From assembly GCA_963575745.1 (NCBI GenBank), contig CAUYUJ010010458.1, positions 139,623 to 203,622 on the forward strand: a DNA stretch of 64,000 nucleotides, read 5' to 3'. This document shows positions 8,700-64,000 of the stretch, piece by piece. The stretch's first letter is position 1; every line of letters begins with the position of its first letter. Position numbers and translations under genes: made by a program. Source of the stretch: Prorocentrum cordatum. Its lineage: Eukaryota; Sar; Dinophyceae; Prorocentrales; Prorocentraceae. Below the pieces are notes generated by a model that did not search any database, was not told the DNA's origin, and worked only from the letters and a program-made list of their open reading frames with translations.

Positions 8700-9240
8700 C
8701 ACATCGCTCGGGCGTTTCGGACCTGCCGTTGAGGATCTGTGCATCATCATGTCACCCAAACTCCCCAGTCCCTGACACCGAGCGGGGTTTACCTCCCGTC
8801 GGCCTCGTGGCAAAGCTTGCTCCTGGTCTTGTACGTCACTGGACCTTGCACTCCAACTGACCTGAACTTCTTTGTCTGCACCTCTGGCTCTGGCGAGGCA
8901 TCTCGCCTTCGCCGCCTCGACAGGGATGCCTCCAGCTGCAAATCTCCATTTCGAACAGCCTCTGGTACAATGTGCAATGGCGTAGTCCATGTCTCTATCT
9001 CAGCTTCCGTTGCCCCTGCACCCAGCACCACAAACACATGATAACTAAAACCAATCACCAGCAAGATAACCACCACATGGGACAACCCAGTCCACCAACT
9101 GAAGTCGCTCTTCATGTTGACGTGGATGTTTACCCTGTCTTCGTAGTAATACTCCTTCGCGTCCGTCTGCGCGGTCATGAGCACCGCCGCCAACACCTTG
9201 GTCAGGATCTCGGGCTCTCTGAACGTCGTCAGCCTCAGCT
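8700..9240 (-). pseudogene. C-terminal tail of Copia polyprotein with a membrane segment
   Basis: Downstream of the RNase H part the minus-strand frame stays open and includes SHVVVILLVIGFSYHVFVVL (about 9005-9070). This is a clear single hydrophobic helix, followed by a charged Arg-rich tail (SLSRRRRRDAS). Standard Copia polyproteins end soon after RNase H, so this is an extra C-terminal extension. From memory, other dinoflagellate Copia-like proteins carry comparable hydrophobic tails, but I cannot verify this here. An env-like role is speculative. Confidence 0.6.
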
Positions 9241-9640
9241 GAATGAGTCCCCGCATCCGCATGTGACTCCTCAACGTGTCTTTGTCCACCCGCTTGGTAC
9301 CTATGTCCGCCACGTGGTCCTTGGCGCTCACTTGTGTCACCTCCATCTCTCCGTCACGGACCAGATATTGATGCCAGATCCATCGCGTCTGTAGATGCCG
9401 TGCCCGTCCAGGTCCACGTTTGTATATCATCCCCCTCGTTGTTGCAGACTCCGTCTTCAACTCCAGCGTGATCTTGACCTGATCCTTTCTCGTCTATGCC
9501 GTTCCATGCAGCACGTGCTTGATGGTGAGACTTATTGCCGTGCCCGACAGCATGGAATAGAATTCCGACTCCCCGCTTGATAATGTTACCGCCGTTTGTA
9601 CCCCACTCTCCAGCAGACGAGTGCCTAAGCGAATACAATC
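9240..9640 (-). pseudogene. Copia RNase H region
   Basis: Minus-strand frames give SEFYSMLSGTAISLTIKH-like sequence, then, after a shift, LKTESATTRGMIYKRGPGR, HLQTRWIWHQYLV and VSAKDHVADIGTKRVDKDTL. These correspond to the Copia RNase H core and its end motif (ADIxTK), where the enzyme degrades the RNA strand of the hybrid. The domain is split over at least two frames, with the break near 9455-9500. Confidence 0.8.
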
Positions 9641-9979
9641 CGACTACATATTCTTGCTGTTCGCCCCTTGTCCAGCCCAGCTTGCGTCCACCGACACCTT
9701 CACCTTGAAAGTCATCTCCTGATGCGGGTAGAGAATCATTATCTCGGCCGCACCCTTCAGGTACCTCACCTAACGCTACTGCTTAAGGATGCGATTCACC
9801 CTCGGGTCGCTGTACGAACAACTCGGATCTCGACTAGCTTCTCGAATGCCATAGCGGTCGCTTGTCGAGCATTGGCCAATCCCACAACAACTCTTATGTC
9901 ATAGAATTCTGTCTTGCTACTCGATCTTCTGCTTCACGTACTCCGTTCGCCGTATGCTTTGAGTTCGGCGTGCCTGCCA

Positions 9980-11050
9980 GCTTGGCCTGCTTGAACTCAT
10001 AGTTCCGTTATATTCAGGATCAGCTTCAGTTCTGGCAAGATACCGAAGCCCTCCTCGCCCCACATCATTGTCCTGTTGCAAAACGGGTCTTCAACTGCCC
10101 CTCCAGGTCCAACTCGCAGTTGAGGTTTCACCTTGGATCGATCGGCCATGATCTCATCGAATGTGTCCAGCTCATCATAGGGCTCCACAACGAAGTAGCC
10201 CCCATGACCAGCACACAGAGAATCGACACCAGGGCTGTAATATAAGCAGCACACCGTCTTCAACTCCACATACCCGTTCTGCATGAAGTTGTCTCTCATC
10301 CCGCCTTGGAATAGCATCGACGCCCCTGGCGCCCCATACGTCGCCTTCTGTAGATTCCAAAGAATCCCATGTCTTCACTGCTCAGGTGGAGGCCAGCAAT
10401 ACTGTGGCTCCTTCAGCGAGGCGTGAAAGAAAGCAACTGATCTGCCGTAGAGCCCGAGGTTCTTCCTCCGACTCTCCTGTGGACTCAACGACGCTGCCTT
10501 CGAGATAACCATCTTCACCGCCCACAGCGCTGGTCTACCCGCGAAATTGGCGGGGCGGGGTCAGTCCCGTCACTATATCTCCTGTGGACGCATCGGCTTC
10601 TCACGATCCACTCGCTGTTCTGAAGATCGTACTTCTTGCTATCGATCCACTTGGTGCCAAACGGCTACATCCGCACCTCCAGCTGAACCCATTCGAACAC
10701 CTCGAACTCCTCCATGTTCTTCATCTCCTAGGTCCTCCCCTCTGTGACCATGTCCTTCGGTAGCTCATCACCTCTACACGTGTCCCTGTAGACTCCATTT
10801 CCCACCAGCTTCTCGTAATTCACTCTCGGCTCGATCCCCTCGCAGACGTGCCTGTCCTCCTCTCGCGTGATCGCCATCAGAATACCTACATCCATGTTCT
10901 GGTCCTCCCATGTTGGCGCGGTGGGTGCAACGTCTCCTCCAGCAACGATCGCCACCCCACTCATCTCCACGTCTTCCATCATCGGATCACGGCCAAAGTA
11001 ATGTCCCACCGGTGTTCTAGGTGCTCGTAGCCTTGCATCTACTAACATCG
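9980..11050 (-). pseudogene. Copia reverse transcriptase relic, catalytic Asp pair lost
   Basis: Minus-strand fragments include CCLYYSPGVDSLCAGHGGYF, VEPYDELDTFDEIMADRS and RVGPGG. In related dinoflagellate Copia proteins the motif after the large hydrophobic block is HGDDF, where DD binds the catalytic metals. Here it reads HGGYF (about 10197-10211), so the active site is gone. N-terminal pieces lie at 10728-11048 (ITREEDRHVCEG, VGNGVYRDTCRGDELPKDMV). Several frameshifts separate the pieces. Confidence 0.75.
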
Positions 11051-11069
11051 GTTCTTGTACCCGAGCTTC

Positions 11070-12210
11070 TTCAGGTGATACTGCTCATGCTGGTGGTTCC
11101 TGTTGAGCTCGTCCTGCGGCTTGATCTGGGTTCGGCTCGCCCTCGTCAAAGATCTTGGCGAACCTCGTCCCGCGCCTCGCGTTGAGAACAGCCGAGTTAC
11201 CCTTGCAGGCTGCACAGCCATCTGTTGGCCCATGCTCCTCGGTCAACGACTTCGTGATGTACCTCCTCCGTCGCCCTACCACGTTCTGGTCCTTCACCTC
11301 CAGGCCTCTCGGATTCCACGGTACACCAATGAACGTGCCGTATACCTCTTTGTTATGTTTGTCCCCGGCGCTCCTCAGTTTCATCGTCCTGGCATGCTCA
11401 ATCCCGCGGGCAGTACCTACGATGACCTCGTCGTTCTCGTCACGCCTGCCAAGAAAAATCCCTTCACTCCACATCGGTTCCATCGTCGAGTAGTCGTTCG
11501 CTTGGATCTTCTAGTCAATCGTCTCTCCAATCTTGCCAAGCTCCGAATTTTACTTTGCTTGTCCCCATAGTCCCCACGCTGTCCTGCCGTCCGTCTTGAT
11601 CGCAAACCTCGCAAGCAAGAACCCCACGTGTTAACCAGCCAGGGCATGACCAAACTCTTTGGACCGATCTTCAACGTCAGGTTGAGCTCCAGCTCGCTGT
11701 GTAGCGTCCGCAGTTAAGATTCCACGCGTTCCACGGCATTCTCGATCGCCCTTTTACTCTGGTGAGGAGCCTTCGGCGACTTCTCCACCTGCGTGCTGTG
11801 CTTTCTCCTGTTCTTGACCGCCGTGATCACCGCCTGCAACGATGCCTCCTGGTCATGATGTCGGCTGAGCCCCAAACGTCTATGTCGAACTCCACCGCTG
11901 ACTTGACATACTCGCTCGGTCCCTTGTGGACGACCATGATCGACGCTACGTGTCCTCAGGCTTCTGAACCATAACCAGGATCGTCACCATCTCCGTTTCC
12001 AACTCGGTGTTCACGAAACAGTCGCCCATGCTGATGATTGGCAGTGTTTGCGCCTCCGCTGGATTTGCCGCCTAATTAGCCTCCGCTTTGCCGCGCCCCC
12101 ATAAGCACCATCTGCACCAGTCTCTGAACGGCACGTGCGTGCGCTCGTGCATGGCAATCTCCTCAGCGGTCGGTTTGTATCTATTATTATTTGTTTTCGG
12201 TCGCTGGACC
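11070..12210 (-). pseudogene. Copia integrase relic
   Basis: Read on the minus strand, the order is a zinc-binding-like end (HVPFRDWCRWCLWGRGKAE, about 12095-12155), then ILVMVQKPED, DQEASLQAVITAVKNRRKHS (second catalytic Asp) and SPKAPHQSKRAIENAVERVE (catalytic Glu). The C-terminal block follows, with PMWSEGIFLGRRDENDEVIV at about 11420-11480. The DDE-type integrase inserts the cDNA. The first Asp block is disrupted (ISMGDCF), and at least four frameshifts and one stop interrupt the domain. Confidence 0.82.
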
Positions 12211-12449
12211 TCGTCACAATCTTCCGCCTGAGGCAGGCATTTCTTCTCCACCCAGTTCGACCTGCATTCAACTCCTTGCTCACTACGGCTCCGCCTTGAT
12301 CATCAAATCAAACTCCCTGCGAACCCTTCGTAATGTCACTCACCGCAATGATTGTCGTGTGAACGTCTCGTACATAAGCTAACCTTGTACTGGTTGACCC
12401 GGGTCTGCAATTTGCATACATATTGTCTTAAAACCGTCAGCATAGATTC

Positions 12450-12960
12450 AGGCACCATCAGCTTGTCGCAGAGGTGGTCCATCTCCTTCTTGTGGAATCT
12501 GCGCATGAATCGACTATCACCTCGATCTTCCCGTCATCTGTCCGCGAGCCCTGCTCGTCAATTGGAATCAGGTAGCTCTCGTCATTCTTGTCCTTGTCGT
12601 TGTTGGACTCCTCACCGTGGTCCTTCTCCTCGTCCTCGCTGTCGCCCATGGCTCTCATGAAGATGTAGCCCTCCTCGGCATAGTAGTAGTCGTGACCCAA
12701 CTTCATGTGTCCGTCCTTGCCCTTGTCAGCTGGTTGATCCCGTCGCGACTTGTCTGCTTGATCTTGGTTTTTGTTGTTCCCTTTGCTTATCTTGCGCAGG
12801 TATTCCTTCGTGATGTTGCCGTCCTCCATGTCTTGCGTAGCTTTCCTGCGCTCCATCAGCTTGTGACCCTTCTTCCTGCAGCACTCGCACGGCATACTCG
12901 TGGTGGATGTGTCGTTTTTGTTGCCTCTCGCATTCGCAAGGGCTTCGCCCCCTGCCGCCG
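12450..12960 (-). pseudogene. Copia gag zinc knuckle and start of protease
   Basis: The minus-strand frame 12895-12458 begins with CECCRKKGHKLMERRKAT, a CCHC-type zinc knuckle with the last Cys replaced (usually GHxxxxC). An acidic linker follows, then IEVIVDSCADS, which resembles the aspartic protease start (DSGA or DSCA). The linker carries a DKGKDGHMKLGH segment. The protease is then lost in a frameshift. The knuckle normally packages genomic RNA. Confidence 0.72.
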
Positions 12961-13129
12961 GCCCCGTCTTTCGGATAATGGGCTACGCAAGAGCATGAGG
13001 CCTCGGCGCCGCCGTGAAGCAGCATCGGCAGGAGAAATTGAGATTATGATCATATTGTTGAACTCAGTGTTACATTTTGAACCTGCCCCATATGCCGTGC
13101 ACTGAGGTTTCCCATAGAATTTCGGACAT

Positions 13130-44289: not shown

Positions 44290-45065
44290 GTGTCCCGAGC
44301 GAGGGGGCTCGTGGCGCCGAGGGCCGGGATTTTCGCGCCTTCCGGGCAGGTGCTCCGCAAAATTTCGGTTCCCGCCAGCTGCGGGGCGCAGAGGCGCGGA
44401 GAACTTGGCACCATGGCGCCCCTCGCGCACCGCGGCTGGCGGGAACCGGAAGTTTGGCGAGGTCTTGTCCGGGACGGGCAGAAATCCCGGCCCCCGCCAG
44501 CCGCGGGGCGAACGGCGTGGAAATCTCAGCCCCGGGCGCCCCCGCAGGCCCCGCAGCTGGCGGGAACCAGGATTTTGGCGAGGTCTTGTCTGGAACGCGC
44601 GGGCAGGGGAGTGGAAATCTCAGCCTCTGGCGCGCCCCGCGACTGGCGGGAACCGGGATTTTGGAGAGTTCCCGTCCGGAACGTGCGGAAAGACCCGGTT
44701 CCCGCCAGTTGTGGGGCGCAGGGGCGTGGAAATCTCGGCGCTCCTGCGCCCCGCGGCTGGCGGGAACCAAGATTTTGAGGAGGTCCTGTCCAGAACGCGC
44801 GGAAATCCCGGTTCCCGCCACCCGCGGGGCGCAACTGCGCGGAATCTTAGCTCCTTGCGCCCTTGCGCCCCGCGGATAGCGGGAACCGGGATTTTCGATA
44901 TTCCTGTCCGGAACGCGCGGAAATCCTGGTCCCGGCCCACGGGCGTGGACATTTTGACCCTTGTTTGGCGCCCTGGCGCCCCGCGGGTGGCAAGAATTGG
45001 AAGCGGTGAGTTCCTGCATGGACTGCGCAGGAATCCTGGTTCCTGCTCGTCGCGGGGCGAGGGGG
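44290..45065. repeat. Seven-copy, about 110-120-bp repeat with internal hairpins
   Basis: The anchor CTGGCGGGAACC recurs at about 44436, 44557, 44643, 44757, 44875 (ATAGCGGGAACC) and 44985 (degenerate), with a partial first unit from 44300. Most units also hold the inverted partner GGTTCCCGCCAG or CCCCCGCCAGCCGCGGGGCG plus GTCCGGAACGCGCGGAAATC, so single units can form stem-loops. Plus and minus frames run through it but repeat with the unit. Confidence 0.87.
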
Positions 45066-53547: not shown

Positions 53548-53706
53548 GGATATGAGAAAAATGTCATATCCTGGCGGTCGTGGTTTCGCAGTTGCGGTCG
53601 TCGTCGGTCGACGTTCGCCGAATGCAGACGACGACCGACGACGACGACCGCGACGTCACGACGTCGAGGACCACGATCACCCGAATATGACATTTTTCTC
53701 ATATCC
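53548..53706. mobile_element. 159-bp hairpin (MITE-like) element whose ends are themselves hairpins
   Basis: The 24-nt ends (53548-53571 and 53683-53706) are inverted copies with one mismatch. Within each end, GGATATGA and TCATATCC pair around an 8-nt GAAAAATG-type loop. The interior also pairs loosely (GGTCGTGGT with ACCACGATC). The AT-rich ends contrast with the GTC/GAC-rich surroundings. No target duplication was evident. Confidence 0.72.
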
Positions 53707-58778: not shown

Positions 58779-61700
58779 GTGCTCCTCCTTCTCATCCGGC
58801 TCTTCCTCGTCATCCTCTCCTTCCACTCCGCTCCCTCCTCTCCCTCTTCCTCCTCATCCTCCCTAGGCGTCCTCCTTCCTCTCCCTCCTCCCCCTCCTCC
58901 TCCTCCCCCTCCCCCCCCCTCCCCCTGCCCCCCCCTTCCCCTTCTCTCATCGTCATCTTTGTTTTGCAACCTTGCGCTCGCCTTGTCGAGCAGGCGCTTG
59001 TACGCTGCGAATGGATTGGAGTTGGACGACGATCAGACAACCGACGCTTTGCAGAGCATCAAAGCATTGAGAGAGCACTTGCGCGAGAGATCGATGACAC
59101 CAGTGTCTGTCGGGTCTGCTGCCTCGAGCTCGTTGCACAAGTTGCAGGCGCTGTTGCATCAGATTCGTCTTGAGGAACCGTCTTGGGCCCGCGCTTTGGA
59201 CACGATGCGCAGCGCTGTCAGCAGCACGACAGATTGTGGAACAGAGATGCACTTGGGGGTGCACCCCCCTTTCTTCCTTCGGAGTCTCTTCCCGTGGTTG
59301 CCCGGGGGCGAGCAGGAGTTCCAGTTCGTAGATGGTGACGATGAGGCCAATGCAATCCCAGACGAGTTCGAATATGACGTCGAGGGCGGGCCAGGCGATG
59401 CGGGTGAATTTCATTTTCTCGGCGAGGGTGAAATGCAAAGCGAGGCTCGAGACGAGCGACCTCCTGAGGCTGTTGTTGATCCTGCGGCGGCCGCAGCAAG
59501 TGATGTTGATGTCGGTGACCGCGGCGAACCAGGAGAGCTCGTCGTGGACACGACTTCGTGGCTTTTGATTCCAGGCGTGTGCCATACCATCCATAATGCG
59601 ACAGAGGAGCTCAAAAAGGTCATGGAGTATTTCCCTGATTAGACGAAGGGCCTCAAGGCCATCTGCGACATGGTTCGACGTCGGTTTAGCAATGAGCGCT
59701 TGATGGAAACGTGTTTTTCGACTGCTCCAGCTTGCTACCATAAGGACTTGTACAAGTCTTTCAAGGCGTGCGTGTATACTGGCCGATGGGGTAGCGTCGC
59801 CGATGCCACCCGGGAGCTTGCCCCGCTGCAGCCTTCTTTGCGTTTCGCGTGGGACCCGATTAAGTTCAATCGTGGCAGGCCCATTCGTGCTGACAACAAC
59901 GTTGGGGACGATGCGCAACAATTCAGGTTAGATCTGCGAGAGGTCAACAGTGCGATATCTTCTTTATTCTTCTGGGCATACAGGGGCATGGTTGAGATCA
60001 TCGCGGACACCATTTTGCACATGTTTCATTATTGCTCAAGTTGCGCATGTCATCAGACCGCAGACGAATATCATCAGTGGGTGTGCAGCGTATGCTCCGA
60101 TGCCGACCTCTGCAAAGCTGCTTGTCCCATGGCCGGGCGCCTCCTCCCTTACGCTTGTACTGGGCATATACGCAAGAAGCTGAACAATCTTTGGATTTCG
60201 TCGGAGACTACGTTGACGCTGAAGATGCGCCAGAGTCTCAGCGAGGCGGGCAGGGGTGCAGGGCGGGAAGTGCAGGGTGGTGCCATTCGTCTTCGGTATT
60301 ATGCAGTTATCCTCTTGATCATGCTTCGTCATCCTCGTCTGTCTCCTCAGCCTCTTCCCTCTATCCTCGCTTAGCCTCGTCGTCCTTCTTCCTATTTATC
60401 GGAACCTCTCCCCCCAATGACCCCCGCCACCTTGCACCTCCCATCTAGCTGCGCAGCTGCTCCAGACAGCAGGGGGGGCTGGGGAAGCCTGGTGGGGGAT
60501 CAGGTGGACAAGCGGGCATTTCTACATGATTTTCACCGGGGCCGCCAGATGTTTTGCTTTTATGTTGCTGTAAAGATTGCACCTTTTGAGCGGTTTCCGA
60601 TTGTCATTGGAGCTATCGCGCATGATGATGTTGATGTTTCCCGGCGCTACGTGCGGAAGTTGATGCGTTTGCACGACAGAGCTGTTGCAAGTGGCGACCG
60701 CGCCGTTGAGCACCCCAGAGTCGTTGCACTTTCCAGCCCGGGGCCAGGAAGGGACGCTTTGCAGGCTTACGCCGACGAGGGAGAGATGTCTGAAGCCTTG
60801 CTCGTCGAGATTGCTATGCTGCGATTCGTTTCGATCGTCGAGGTAGGCGTCGAGAGGCTTCACGCTCAAGTTTCGATGTCGATCCGACCAGCACCGCACC
60901 ACGGCCCTGTGCATATTGCCCTGTCACAGCACGGCGCACTTTTGGAGGAGTGGTTGACGGCGCACCCCGAGCAATTGAACGATTTCGCCCGGAAGCTTGA
61001 GCAGGTCAGGCGCCCTTCTGATTGCATTGACGTTCTGGGCTTCAGAGACCACGATTACTTCCAAATATTGCAGGGCACCGTGAATAAAGCTATGTCCTTG
61101 AACCGCTCCCCGCACTGCGGCCGCCTCATCGAAATCATTTACCATTGCGACCCGCATGCCTTGTTCTCGTCATTTGATATCATCAGGGCCACAGGTGACG
61201 AGGGCGGCCCTGGCGGACCAGGTGGAGGGCCTGGGGCCCCTGGGGGCCCAGGTGGCGGCGGAGGCGATCCAGACGACGCGCCTGCGCCAAGTGGCCCAGG
61301 AGGCTACTCGGGCCACGATGGAGGAGGTGGGGGTGGCGGAGGAATCGGCGGAGACAGAGGAGGTGGCGGAGGAGTCGGCGGAGGCGGAGGCGGAGGCGGC
61401 GGAGGAGGTGGCGAGGAAAGCGGAGGTCACGGCGACGACGGAGGCAGCGGGGAGGGCGGCGGCGATGGTGGCGGGGGCAAGCGTGGCACCAGCAGAGAAC
61501 CAAACAGCGACGCAAACATAACAATTGGGAGTTCCGCGCGGAGTTCTTGGATCGGCGCTGGACCACCTCCGCGGCTGGGCCCCCGTCCCTGGCGCGCGAA
61601 GCGCGCCGGCGATGGCGCCGCAGGTGCCGCCAGTGGGGTCCACCGCCGATCCAAGAAATCTGCTCGGACCTCTTATGTATGTTTATGTCGTGGCTTGGTT

Positions 61701-64000
61701 CTCTGACCAGAGTTGAAGACAGCGGTGGCTTCTTGGACAAAGTGTGGTGCCGATTGGCAGTTGATTTCTTCAGAATCAAGTTTGCTGCATGGCCCCGGGA
61801 CTCGTATTTCGCAATTGATAACGATGATGTTGCTCTCGGGCACATGGGCATGCACGGCATCCAATCTTCGGTGCAGTTCACCGCGCCAGCATTGGACGAC
61901 AGTGACTTGGAGGGCCCTTGTTTTCAAAGTTCCGACGTTGCTGACAGCGAGTTCCAATTCGGCGGTGAAGACGCGCCTGACAGTGACAGCCGTCGCCAGC
62001 CCATGATTCCCCAAGTTGGGGCTGAGAGCGTCACAGTGTTCTCGGTCACTGATATCGATCCAATGCGGATCAGAGCCGGCGCCACGTCTCAGCATCATAT
62101 GGAACTTCCATCTTCGAGCATCGGCACCTTGATCCATGGAGTTGCCCACGTCCGTTCGCCACTGCTTGGAGAACAGCTGCTTGTTCAAGGTCATTCGTTT
62201 GCAGGCAGCGTTGGCGCTGACTCGAACCACTTGGTGTTGTTGGATTTAGGGGGCCACATGCGAACCCTACCCCTGCCCCACGAGTTCTGGGAGGGTGGGC
62301 GGGGTTCACTCCGCTCGAGACCGGAGCTCCCGAGCGAAGTGAACCCCACCCTCCCCATTACAAATCGTGGGGGGTAGGGGTGGAGTTCGCATGCGCCCCC
62401 CTAGGATTGTCTCGGGCGCAAGGCGCTTAGCAACATGAGGCGATATGTTCCTGAGGATGAGCTCGTTTACATGGTCCCCATTGGTAAGTTGCGCACCCCG
62501 GTGGTCCTGCAGTGTATCCAGTCGCTCGCCAGAGCGGGTGCTCATGGTGAGGGGGGGGGAGTCGTCCTGTTCCTCTTCCTCCCTCCTCTTCCTCCTCCCT
62601 CCTCCTCCCTCCGCCTCCTGCTCGCCCTCCCCTTCTCAATGATCAATGCCGCCTCCTCCTTATCTCCTTATCCTCCTCCTCCTCCTCCTCCTCCCTCCTC
62701 CTTCCCATTCCCCTATCCTCGCTCTCCTCTTCCTTCTTCGTCCTCCTGCCCCCTCGCTGCCAGTCGGGGGGGCAGCCCCGTCGGGCCGTGCCTTCATGTG
62801 CTCGACGCTCGACTCGACCCAGGTGTTCGGCTCGACCTCGCGCCGGGTCCACAGCGATACTTGCCGTCCTCACTTCCTCCCCCTCTTCTCCACATGTTCC
62901 TCCTCGCCTCACGCCCTCTCTCGCCTTCGACTTGGACCCCCCCCTCCCCTGCCCTTCGGCCGGTTGGGGCAGGATGGCAGGACGGGGCCCGGGCTTGCAG
63001 TGCAAGTTGAGAGCGATGTGGGGGGGAGGTGCTTGGGACGCGCTGGAGGTCGGCGAGAAGGAGTTCGTCGCCCTGCGGGATTTGGCCGCAGAGGGAGTTG
63101 CAGAGAAGGTGGGCAGTGGCAATGGTAGTATTGATAGTTGTGTTGCTGGTTCATGGCGCCTGACCCGCTTTGGCCAGTCCATGCTATGTGTATGCACGAA
63201 GCTCAGAGACCCGACACGGGCCCTTGACGCCCGCGCAGATGTGGAGAAATCGCACATGCACCTTTTCGAGTTGCTCGACGGTCTACTTAACGCTGGATGG
63301 CAGGGGGTTTACACAGAGCTTCCCGCCAAAATTTTGAAGAAAATGCAGCCATTCACCCGCGGCAAGCCAAAGCGTTTCTTGCTGCGGCCTCCAAGTACTC
63401 AGCACATCCATGGCATCAATTGGTGGTATCTCTTGGCTTTGATGTGCGCAGAGGAGCACGATTTGCTGGTCCCTCATGGTTTGCCCGCTGCAGCGCACAA
63501 GAAAATATTGGCCCACGTCCTCGACATCCCGGCACCTCGGCAGAAATACAAACGCATGCAGATGTTCGCAGAGGCCGACGGCGACGAGCCTCCAGCGCCG
63601 CCTTCACCCAAGAGGCGGCGTAAAAAAGGCGCTGGCGGCACCGCCAGGATGAAGAAGGCCTCGGCGGCCCTAGACGGCTGGGAGGAGCTTGACCCCGATG
63701 AATGGGGCGAGGAGGCAGCCGAGGCAGCCGAGGAGGAAGGCGAGGAGGAGGGCGAGGAGGAGGAGGACGAGCGCGGCCAGGAAGGTTTCGCAGTCTTTGA
63801 CGATCGCCAGTTGCGGCGCGAACTTTTCAGCGAGGAGGAGGAGGGGCAGGAGGAGGAGGAGGATATTGCGCCTGGCTCCGACAGCGCGGCGGGCGAGGAC
63901 GATGAGCCAGAGGCGCCTGGGAGCGGGAGTTCTTCCGCAGCTTCCACCAGCAGCTCCAGCTCCAGCTCCAGCGGCTCGGCCCCCACAGCCAGCGAGAAGG
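58261..64000 (+). CDS. Multi-exon gene for a large protein of an unnamed dinoflagellate family (partial, continues past the window)
   Basis: Six plus-strand exons join in phase: 58261(or earlier)-58778, 58994-about 60276, about 60466-61492, 61711-62246, 62409-62546 and 62981-64000+. They give about 1,500 residues, still open at the end. Conserved-looking blocks are LSADSSPQGKRDWF, STTDCGTEMH, GVCHTIHNATEELK, a Cys cluster, VGVERLHAQVSMSIR and INWWYLLALM. From memory, comparable multi-copy proteins exist in other dinoflagellates without a name. The spaced D, D and H..N motifs recall RNase H-fold transposases, but I cannot assign activity. The protein ends in a basic patch (SPKRRRKKG) and a long acidic, Ser-rich tail, suggesting a nuclear protein. 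An in-frame TAG at 59640-59642 interrupts exon 2, so this copy may be a recent pseudogene. Introns 1, 2 and 5 are pyrimidine-rich and the two other gaps are inverted-repeat elements. Confidence 0.72.
58779..58993 (+). other. Intron 1 (GT-AG, pyrimidine-rich)
   Basis: GTGCTCCTCC...GAGCAG|GCGC, 215 nt. Phase 2 on the left and one base on the right restore a codon (AGG), giving GLLGAARRLYAANGLEL. The interior is CTC-rich and expanded. Confidence 0.72.
58994..60276 (+). CDS. Exon 2, interrupted by an in-frame TAG
   Basis: Reads LYAANGLELDDDQTTDALQS, then RSAVSSTTDCGTEMHLGVHP (59205-59260), an acidic linker and LLIPGVCHTIHNATEELKKV. The TAG follows at 59640-59642 and the same frame continues TKGLKAICDMVRRRFSNERL, METCFSTAPACYHKDLYKSF and ACVYTGRWGSVADATREL. 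A Cys cluster CSSCACH then CSVCSDADLCKAACPMAGR (60036-60137) could bind zinc. The end of the exon is uncertain, with GT donors at 60256 and 60277. Confidence 0.72.
59640..59642 (+). other. Premature in-frame stop (TAG)
   Basis: Coding similarity and frame continue without any shift on both sides (MEYFPD / TKGLKAICDM). This is therefore a point nonsense change rather than an exon end. No splice sites lie around it. Confidence 0.8.
60277..60465 (+). other. Intron 2 (pyrimidine-rich; boundaries approximate)
   Basis: CTC/TCC-rich sequence between exons that are both in the same frame. A GTGGTG donor at 60277 with a CTCCAG acceptor at 60465 would be in phase, but other choices nearby are possible. 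Confidence 0.5.
60466..61492 (+). CDS. Exon 3 with C-terminal Gly-rich segment
   Basis: VDKRAFLHDFHRGRQMFCFY, AVKIAPFERFPIVIGAIAHD, EIAMLRFVSIVEVGVERLHA, QVSMSIRPAPHHGPVHIALS and PHALFSSFDIIRA, then a GGPGG/GGGG-rich stretch (61197-61480). The frame is kept up to the inserted inverted-repeat element. The Gly-rich stretch could instead be intronic (GT at 61195-61196), because that choice is also in phase. Confidence 0.7.
61488..61710. mobile_element. Introner-like inverted-repeat element 1, with ACCAG duplication
   Basis: Element 61493-61705 (213 bp) begins CAGAGAACC and ends GGTTCTCTG. Arms of about 70 nt (61493-61564 and 61637-61705) pair imperfectly around a 72-nt loop, with a 21-nt block matching at 20 positions next to the loop. 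ACCAG flanks both sides (61488-61492 and 61706-61710). Removing element plus one duplication (218 nt) moves the frame exactly from that of exon 3 to that of exon 4. The downstream copy supplies the AG of a 3' splice site. The upstream end has no GT in any register. Confidence 0.87.
61711..62246 (+). CDS. Exon 4
   Basis: Reads VEDSGGFLDKVWCRLAVDFF, RIKFAAWPRDSYFAIDNDDV, then an acidic stretch, AESVTVFSVTDIDPMRIRAG and LIHGVAHVRSPLLGEQLLVQ, to NHLVLLD. It lies between the two inverted-repeat elements. Confidence 0.75.
62242..62408. mobile_element. Introner-like inverted-repeat element 2, with GGATT duplication and a GA-AG intron fit
   Basis: Element 62247-62403 (157 bp) begins TAGGGGGCC and ends CCCCCCTA. 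Arms of about 71-73 nt (62247-62317 and 62331-62403) pair well around a 13-nt loop. GGATT flanks both sides (62242-62246 and 62404-62408). Removing 162 nt keeps the frame and gives LVLLDCLGRKALSNMRRYVP. Sliding the cut inside the duplication gives an intron 62243-62404 that starts GA and ends TAG|G, the non-canonical GA donor with AGG acceptor reported for dinoflagellates. Confidence 0.9.
62409..62546 (+). CDS. Exon 5
   Basis: CLGRKALSNMRRYVPEDELV, then YMVPIGKLRTPVVLQCIQSL and ARAGAH, in the same frame as exon 4 once element 2 is removed. It ends CATG|GTGAGG at 62546 in phase 1. Confidence 0.72.
62547..62980 (+). other. Intron 5 (GT-AG, pyrimidine-rich)
   Basis: GTGAGG...GGCAG|GACGG, 434 nt, CTC/TCC-rich throughout. 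The phase-1 donor with two bases at the acceptor makes GGA, giving RAGAHGRGPGLQCKLRAM. The acceptor fits AG|G. Confidence 0.7.
62981..64000 (+). CDS. Exon 6 (open at the window end)
   Basis: Reads LQCKLRAMWGGGAWDALEVG, CVAGSWRLTRFGQSMLCVCT, MHLFELLDGLLNAGWQGVYT, ELPAKILKKMQPFTRGKPKR, INWWYLLALMCAEEHDLLVP and HVLDIPAPRQKYKRMQMFAE. Then a basic patch SPKRRRKKGAGG (63607-63642) and a Glu/Asp-rich, Ser-rich tail run to position 64000 with no stop. The basic patch is a plausible nuclear localisation signal. The acidic repeats use mixed GAG/GAA codons with interspersed unique residues, so they look like protein rather than microsatellite. Confidence 0.8.

Follow-up and report, generated by a model that had tools for sequence, protein, structure and literature searches.

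The closest described systems to the locus analysed here are the introners of dinoflagellates and the hairpin introns of Amoebophrya, euglenids and diplonemids, and our account of them follows portions of each source. Introners of Symbiodinium microadriaticum have terminal inverted repeats (TIRs) and 4-bp target duplications, with the element carrying the 3′ splice site and the duplication giving the 5′ site (Gozashti et al. 2022, PMC9860276). In introner families the share of GA donors can reach 40%, and GC 5′ sites also occur (PMC9860276). In Prorocentrum cordatum, 23.8% of donors are GA, 79.7% of acceptors are AGG, and introns are enriched in introner elements with inverted repeats; the search rule for such elements was 8–20-nt inverted repeats plus 3–5-nt direct repeats near the intron ends (Dougan et al. 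2023, PMC10666404). A review citing Roy et al. (2023) reports introners in dinoflagellates, including 15 families with at least 100 introns each in Polarella glacialis (PMC11453091). The literature already covers TIR introners with a duplication-borrowed 5′ site, GA donors combined with AG|G acceptors, and dinoflagellate genomes with many introner families.

We analysed a stretch of 64,000 nt, referred to as the window, in which a predicted gene on the forward strand contains two hairpin insertions, elements 1 and 2. Element 2 is read here, with slight preference, as a non-autonomous foldback MITE that acts as an introner and is spliced as a GA-AG|G intron. The features of the locus are as follows.

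61493–61705, forward strand: element 1, the second hairpin insertion of the gene, a near-palindrome between ACCAG copies (TIR scans, alignment of halves)
61712–62242, forward strand: in-frame stretch of the upstream coding exon that separates the two elements (open frame, 3-base periodicity)
62242–62246, forward strand: left copy of the target duplication GGATT, whose second G and A would form the GA 5′ splice site (sequence)
62243–62404, forward strand: putative GA-AG|G intron, 162 nt, phase 0 (sole GN-AG|G choice that exactly restores the old sequence)
62247–62403, forward strand: element 2, a hairpin (foldback MITE-like) insertion, TAGGGGG...CCCCCTA (fold, TIR scan, half-to-half alignment)
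62404–62408, forward strand: right GGATT copy, whose first G completes TAG and whose second G would be the exonic G of AG|G (sequence)
62405–62483, forward strand: downstream coding piece ending at a GTAAGT donor (frame kept after removal)
62484–62980, forward strand: predicted ordinary intron GTAAGT...GGCAG|G, phase 1 (sequence, frame kept, no periodicity)

Element 2 is a near-palindrome of 157 bp. Aligning its halves gave 62 identities, 11 mismatches and 11 gap positions, and its two ends agree at 17 of the 20 terminal bases. Folding gave a single hairpin of 62 base pairs. The RNA fold of 62242–62408 reached −109.4 kcal/mol compared with a shuffle mean of −68.87 (z −8.99), and none of 200 shuffles was as good. 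The initial annotation had described a 157-bp inverted repeat with ends TAGGGGG/CCCCCTA and a GGATT duplication about 0.5 kb past element 1; coordinates, anatomy and spacing (61705 to 62247) all agree with the sequence. The element combines TIRs, a target duplication and short length, and lacks a transposase gene, as MITEs and other non-autonomous DNA transposons do, and it shows both marks of the P. cordatum search rule, namely inverted repeats at both ends and a 3–5-nt direct repeat at the borders (GGATT). No further copy was found within the 64-kb window (blastn, word size 7, E up to 1). Element 2 almost certainly entered a coding exon as a transposon-like insertion that duplicated its target, and its transposition would have depended on a transposase acting in trans.

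Chance expectations were assessed by scanning the window and random sequences for comparable structures. Scan A (16-nt TIRs, at most 2 mismatches, flush direct repeat of at least 4 nt) returned 13 matches in the window, ten of them inside a repeat cluster at 44.4–44.9 kb, while two of ten first-order random windows had one match each. Scan B, run at 20 nt with at most 4 mismatches, gave 22 matches, 17 in the 44-kb cluster, and the remaining five include elements 1 and 2; one of ten random windows had one match. Element 2 was missed when the criteria were tightened to 12 nt with at most 1 mismatch; this third scan gave 2 matches, hardly above the controls, five of ten of which had one. In the TIR scans taken together, direct repeats of at least 5 nt outside the 44-kb cluster were confined to elements 1 and 2. 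By fold energy, element 2 ranks fourth among 3192 windows of 167 nt; the three stronger folds are found in purine/pyrimidine or GC-rich tracts (two) and in the 44-kb cluster (one). The chance of a flush 5-bp match alone is about 0.0015, given the composition of the flanks. The 5-bp duplication stands flush with the ends of element 2, and on this ground we rejected a low-complexity hairpin as its identity. The left end has a single DNA match in viral contigs, in which the right end was absent by eye (351 bases); lacking a matching right end, it was taken as chance and not as a relative. Across the whole window there was no structured-RNA match in Rfam at gathering thresholds, no tRNA or tmRNA, and no spliced-leader relic at up to 3 mismatches.

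Two other repeat structures of the window are recorded here as observations in their own right. The region 44300–44950 is a cluster of GC-rich direct and inverted repeats around CTGGCGGGAACCGGGATTTT with many nested hairpins. At 53548–53706 lies a hairpin with perfect 22-nt terminal arms (GGATATGAG.../...CTCATATCC); inspection by eye showed no duplication flush with its outermost ends.

The flanks of element 2 have the properties of coding sequence. Upstream, the exon piece runs for 178 codons without a stop, and its 3-base periodicity of 5.39 was reached by none of 500 shuffles. Exon pieces B, C, D and G of the host gene are also periodic and piece A is not significantly so (1.84, p 0.07), so that periodicity is present in five of six pieces. 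It is absent from element 2 (0.55) and from the two predicted introns (0.62 and 0.50), and not significant in element 1 (1.79, p 0.12). The other predicted intron, 58779–58993, reads GT...CAG|G and keeps the phase. Both predicted introns (58779–58993 and 62484–62980) are pyrimidine-rich over much of their length, with CTCCTCC runs. Once element 2 and one GGATT are taken out, the frame is open to the end of the window, and 61712–62242, 62405–62483 and 62981–63999 join into 543 stop-free codons in three predicted exons. The earlier claim that removal of 162 nt keeps the frame was borne out: of the three frames down to 62484, only this one is stop-free. If kept in the message, element 2 brings stops at 62375 and 62402. 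Removal of element 2 from the mRNA is probable, although an in-frame TAG stands at 59640–59642, 2.6 kb upstream of element 2, with the frame open again beyond it.

This upstream stop may mean that the host gene copy is non-functional or decaying, perhaps a recent pseudogene, or that the gene model lacks an intron. If the copy is non-functional, nothing forces splicing of element 2, which could then be an ordinary MITE in a decaying gene copy, left unspliced, with transcripts, if any, ending at the 62375 stop. Besides the stop at 59640, the presence of two such insertions in one gene fits that explanation. It accords less well with a frame that, 59640 aside, is kept across the predicted junctions 58778/58994 and 62483/62981 and also when both elements are taken out, or with the periodicity of five of six exon pieces, and we consider it unlikely.

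Database queries gave the host gene no identity. None of 23 reading frames of the window, six of them host-gene pieces of which some extend slightly into predicted intron or element sequence, matched Pfam at the curated cut-off; matches below the cut-off to BUD22, IDO and Talin_IBS2B (E 0.04 to 0.54) were set aside. Protein queries, two against viral contigs and one against prokaryote contigs, yielded 21, 3 and 26 pattern matches and no confirmed relative, in scans of low informativeness for a eukaryotic gene. On the minus strand at 8700–13000 are frameshifted, degraded remains of what we take to be a Copia-type retroelement, going by a protein style like that of dinoflagellates; four pieces of them had no Pfam match up to E 0.1.

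The borders at which element 2 would be spliced were listed as in-frame, stop-free GT/GC/GA...AG combinations. Donors were allowed between 45 nt upstream of the element and 29 nt within it, acceptors over its final 31 bases and the 44 nt that follow. There are 20 such GN...AG choices, one of which is GA-AG|G: the intron 62243–62404 would read GATTTAG...CCCCCCTAG|G. Element 2 can thus be given GA...AG|G borders like those of dinoflagellate introns with GA donors, a weak indication in itself. Among all 5-mers of the six host-gene exon pieces, 534 of 4242 (12.6%) would by chance be compatible with an exact GN-AG|G intron, a level at which an unspliced MITE could also have met a fitting target. 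Because of the 20 choices and the 12.6% chance level, the GA-AG pattern is compatible with splicing but weak evidence for it. Compared with GTAAGT, the donor of the predicted intron that follows, the donor GATTTAG agrees in its first base only. The GA...TAG|G intron with cuts inside the duplication, as proposed in the initial annotation, is possible and exactly restores the pre-insertion reading, but the case for it is weaker than was claimed, and the chances that element 2 is removed exactly in this way are about even.

Five starts share the TAG|G acceptor at 62404 (62210, 62216, 62219, 62234 and 62243), and two of them (62210 and 62234) are GT donors. Element 2 might accordingly leave the transcript via a nearby GT donor, as 62234–62404 (171 nt) or 62210–62404 (195 nt), with the loss of a few codons. 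Both would be in-frame, stop-free GT...TAG|G introns, the predicted intron at 58779 likewise has a weak donor (GTGCTC), and introner insertions that alter neighbouring codons are known from the consulted part of PMC9860276. Such removal would nevertheless not restore the pre-insertion sequence and needs an exonic donor outside the duplication, and we regard it as improbable.

Element 1 is 213 bp long (CAGAGAACC...GGTTCTCTG), with ACCAG copies at 61488–61492 and 61706–61710, and an alignment of its halves has 81 identities, 21 mismatches and 9 gap positions. Taking out element 1 and one ACCAG restores the frame, and no GN-AG intron can restore its site exactly: none of 35 in-frame choices ends AG|G, and the same-length choice (61495–61712, GA...AG|T) alters the joined sequence. 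Blastn at word size 7 and E up to 1 gave no match between elements 1 and 2 and no second full-length copy of element 1 in the window. In the proposal that two hairpin families would be making introns in one gene, the difference between the elements agrees with this search, but they share no joint GA-AG|G pattern, because element 1 permits no exact GN-AG borders and none with AG|G. Two families in one gene would be no great surprise, given that several introner families per dinoflagellate genome are reported in the consulted part of the review (PMC11453091).

Element 1 also bears on a non-spliceosomal, hairpin-guided removal of element 2, as proposed for hairpin introns of euglenids, diplonemids and Amoebophrya. 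Since element 1 has no exact GN-AG borders, it would, if removed exactly, be an Amoebophrya- or diplonemid-style hairpin intron beside GT...AG|G introns in one transcript. The ends of element 2 pair very strongly, and they are G/C-rich inverted ends as in two diplonemids, whose intron ends are described as G- and C-rich and inverted (PMC12621601). Yet element 2 does fit GA-AG|G, and the host gene's remaining predicted introns appear to be spliceosomal. In euglenids, positions +4, +5 and +6 pair with −6, −7 and −8, mostly as CAG/CTG, and a purine begins both the intron and the downstream exon, according to the part of PMC4770533 that gives the rule. At none of the six possible starts of element 2 (62242–62247, judged by eye) did pairing and purines occur jointly; start 62246 alone gives all three pairs (one G-U), and both of its purine positions are T. 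Hairpin-guided removal of element 2 is very improbable in our estimate, and it is scarcely more probable that both unrelated full-length hairpins are removed from the mRNA by such a route and not at GN-AG sites.

In the reading that we favour, a foldback MITE of the DNA-transposon type would have inserted into the coding exon and duplicated the 5-bp target GGATT. Its C-rich right end together with the first G of the target would make the 3′ splice site (CCCCCCTAG|G), and the left target copy would supply the GA 5′ splice site. The hairpin would keep the two splice sites side by side, and the spliceosome would take out 162 nt, returning the mRNA to its pre-insertion reading. Splicing and its exact borders are what we infer here. 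If element 2 is spliced, it is a cleanly caught intron birth in which the target, the element and the splice sites can all still be made out, and it shows a GA donor arising straight from a target duplication. It would then also offer a way to test whether the abundance of GA donors in some dinoflagellates is fed by introner insertion.

Compared with the described systems, within the portions of the sources considered, element 2 resembles the introners of Symbiodinium microadriaticum in its TIRs, its short duplication, a putative 3′ site in the element and a 5′ site in the duplication, but differs in that the duplication is 5 bp and not 4 bp and that the whole element is one hairpin. The window has a G+C content of about 61% (mean of rows), compared with 59.7% for the P. 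cordatum genome (PMC10666404). To judge from this G+C content, the AG|G acceptors and the Copia-like remains, the host may be a dinoflagellate, perhaps a Prorocentrum; a diplonemid, a group with G- and C-rich hairpin introns (PMC12621601), is a further candidate. With the introner elements of P. cordatum (PMC10666404), element 2 shares inverted repeats at both ends and direct repeats of 3–5 nt, whereas its arms span nearly the whole element. The introner elements of Amoebophrya A25 and A120 (Farhat et al. 2021, PMC7789003) likewise have hairpin inverted repeats and 3–5-nt direct repeats overlapping the exon borders; the introns there are mostly non-canonical, without a clear border signature, whereas element 2 can be read as GA-AG|G, and some canonical Amoebophrya introns have the same layout (PMC7789003). 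Finally, pairing of the ends, direct repeats and a suggested MITE-like origin link element 2 to the non-conventional introns of euglenids and the non-canonical introns of hemistasiid diplonemids (PMC4770533, PMC12621601), from which the locus is set apart by the GT...AG|G borders of the other predicted introns of its host gene.
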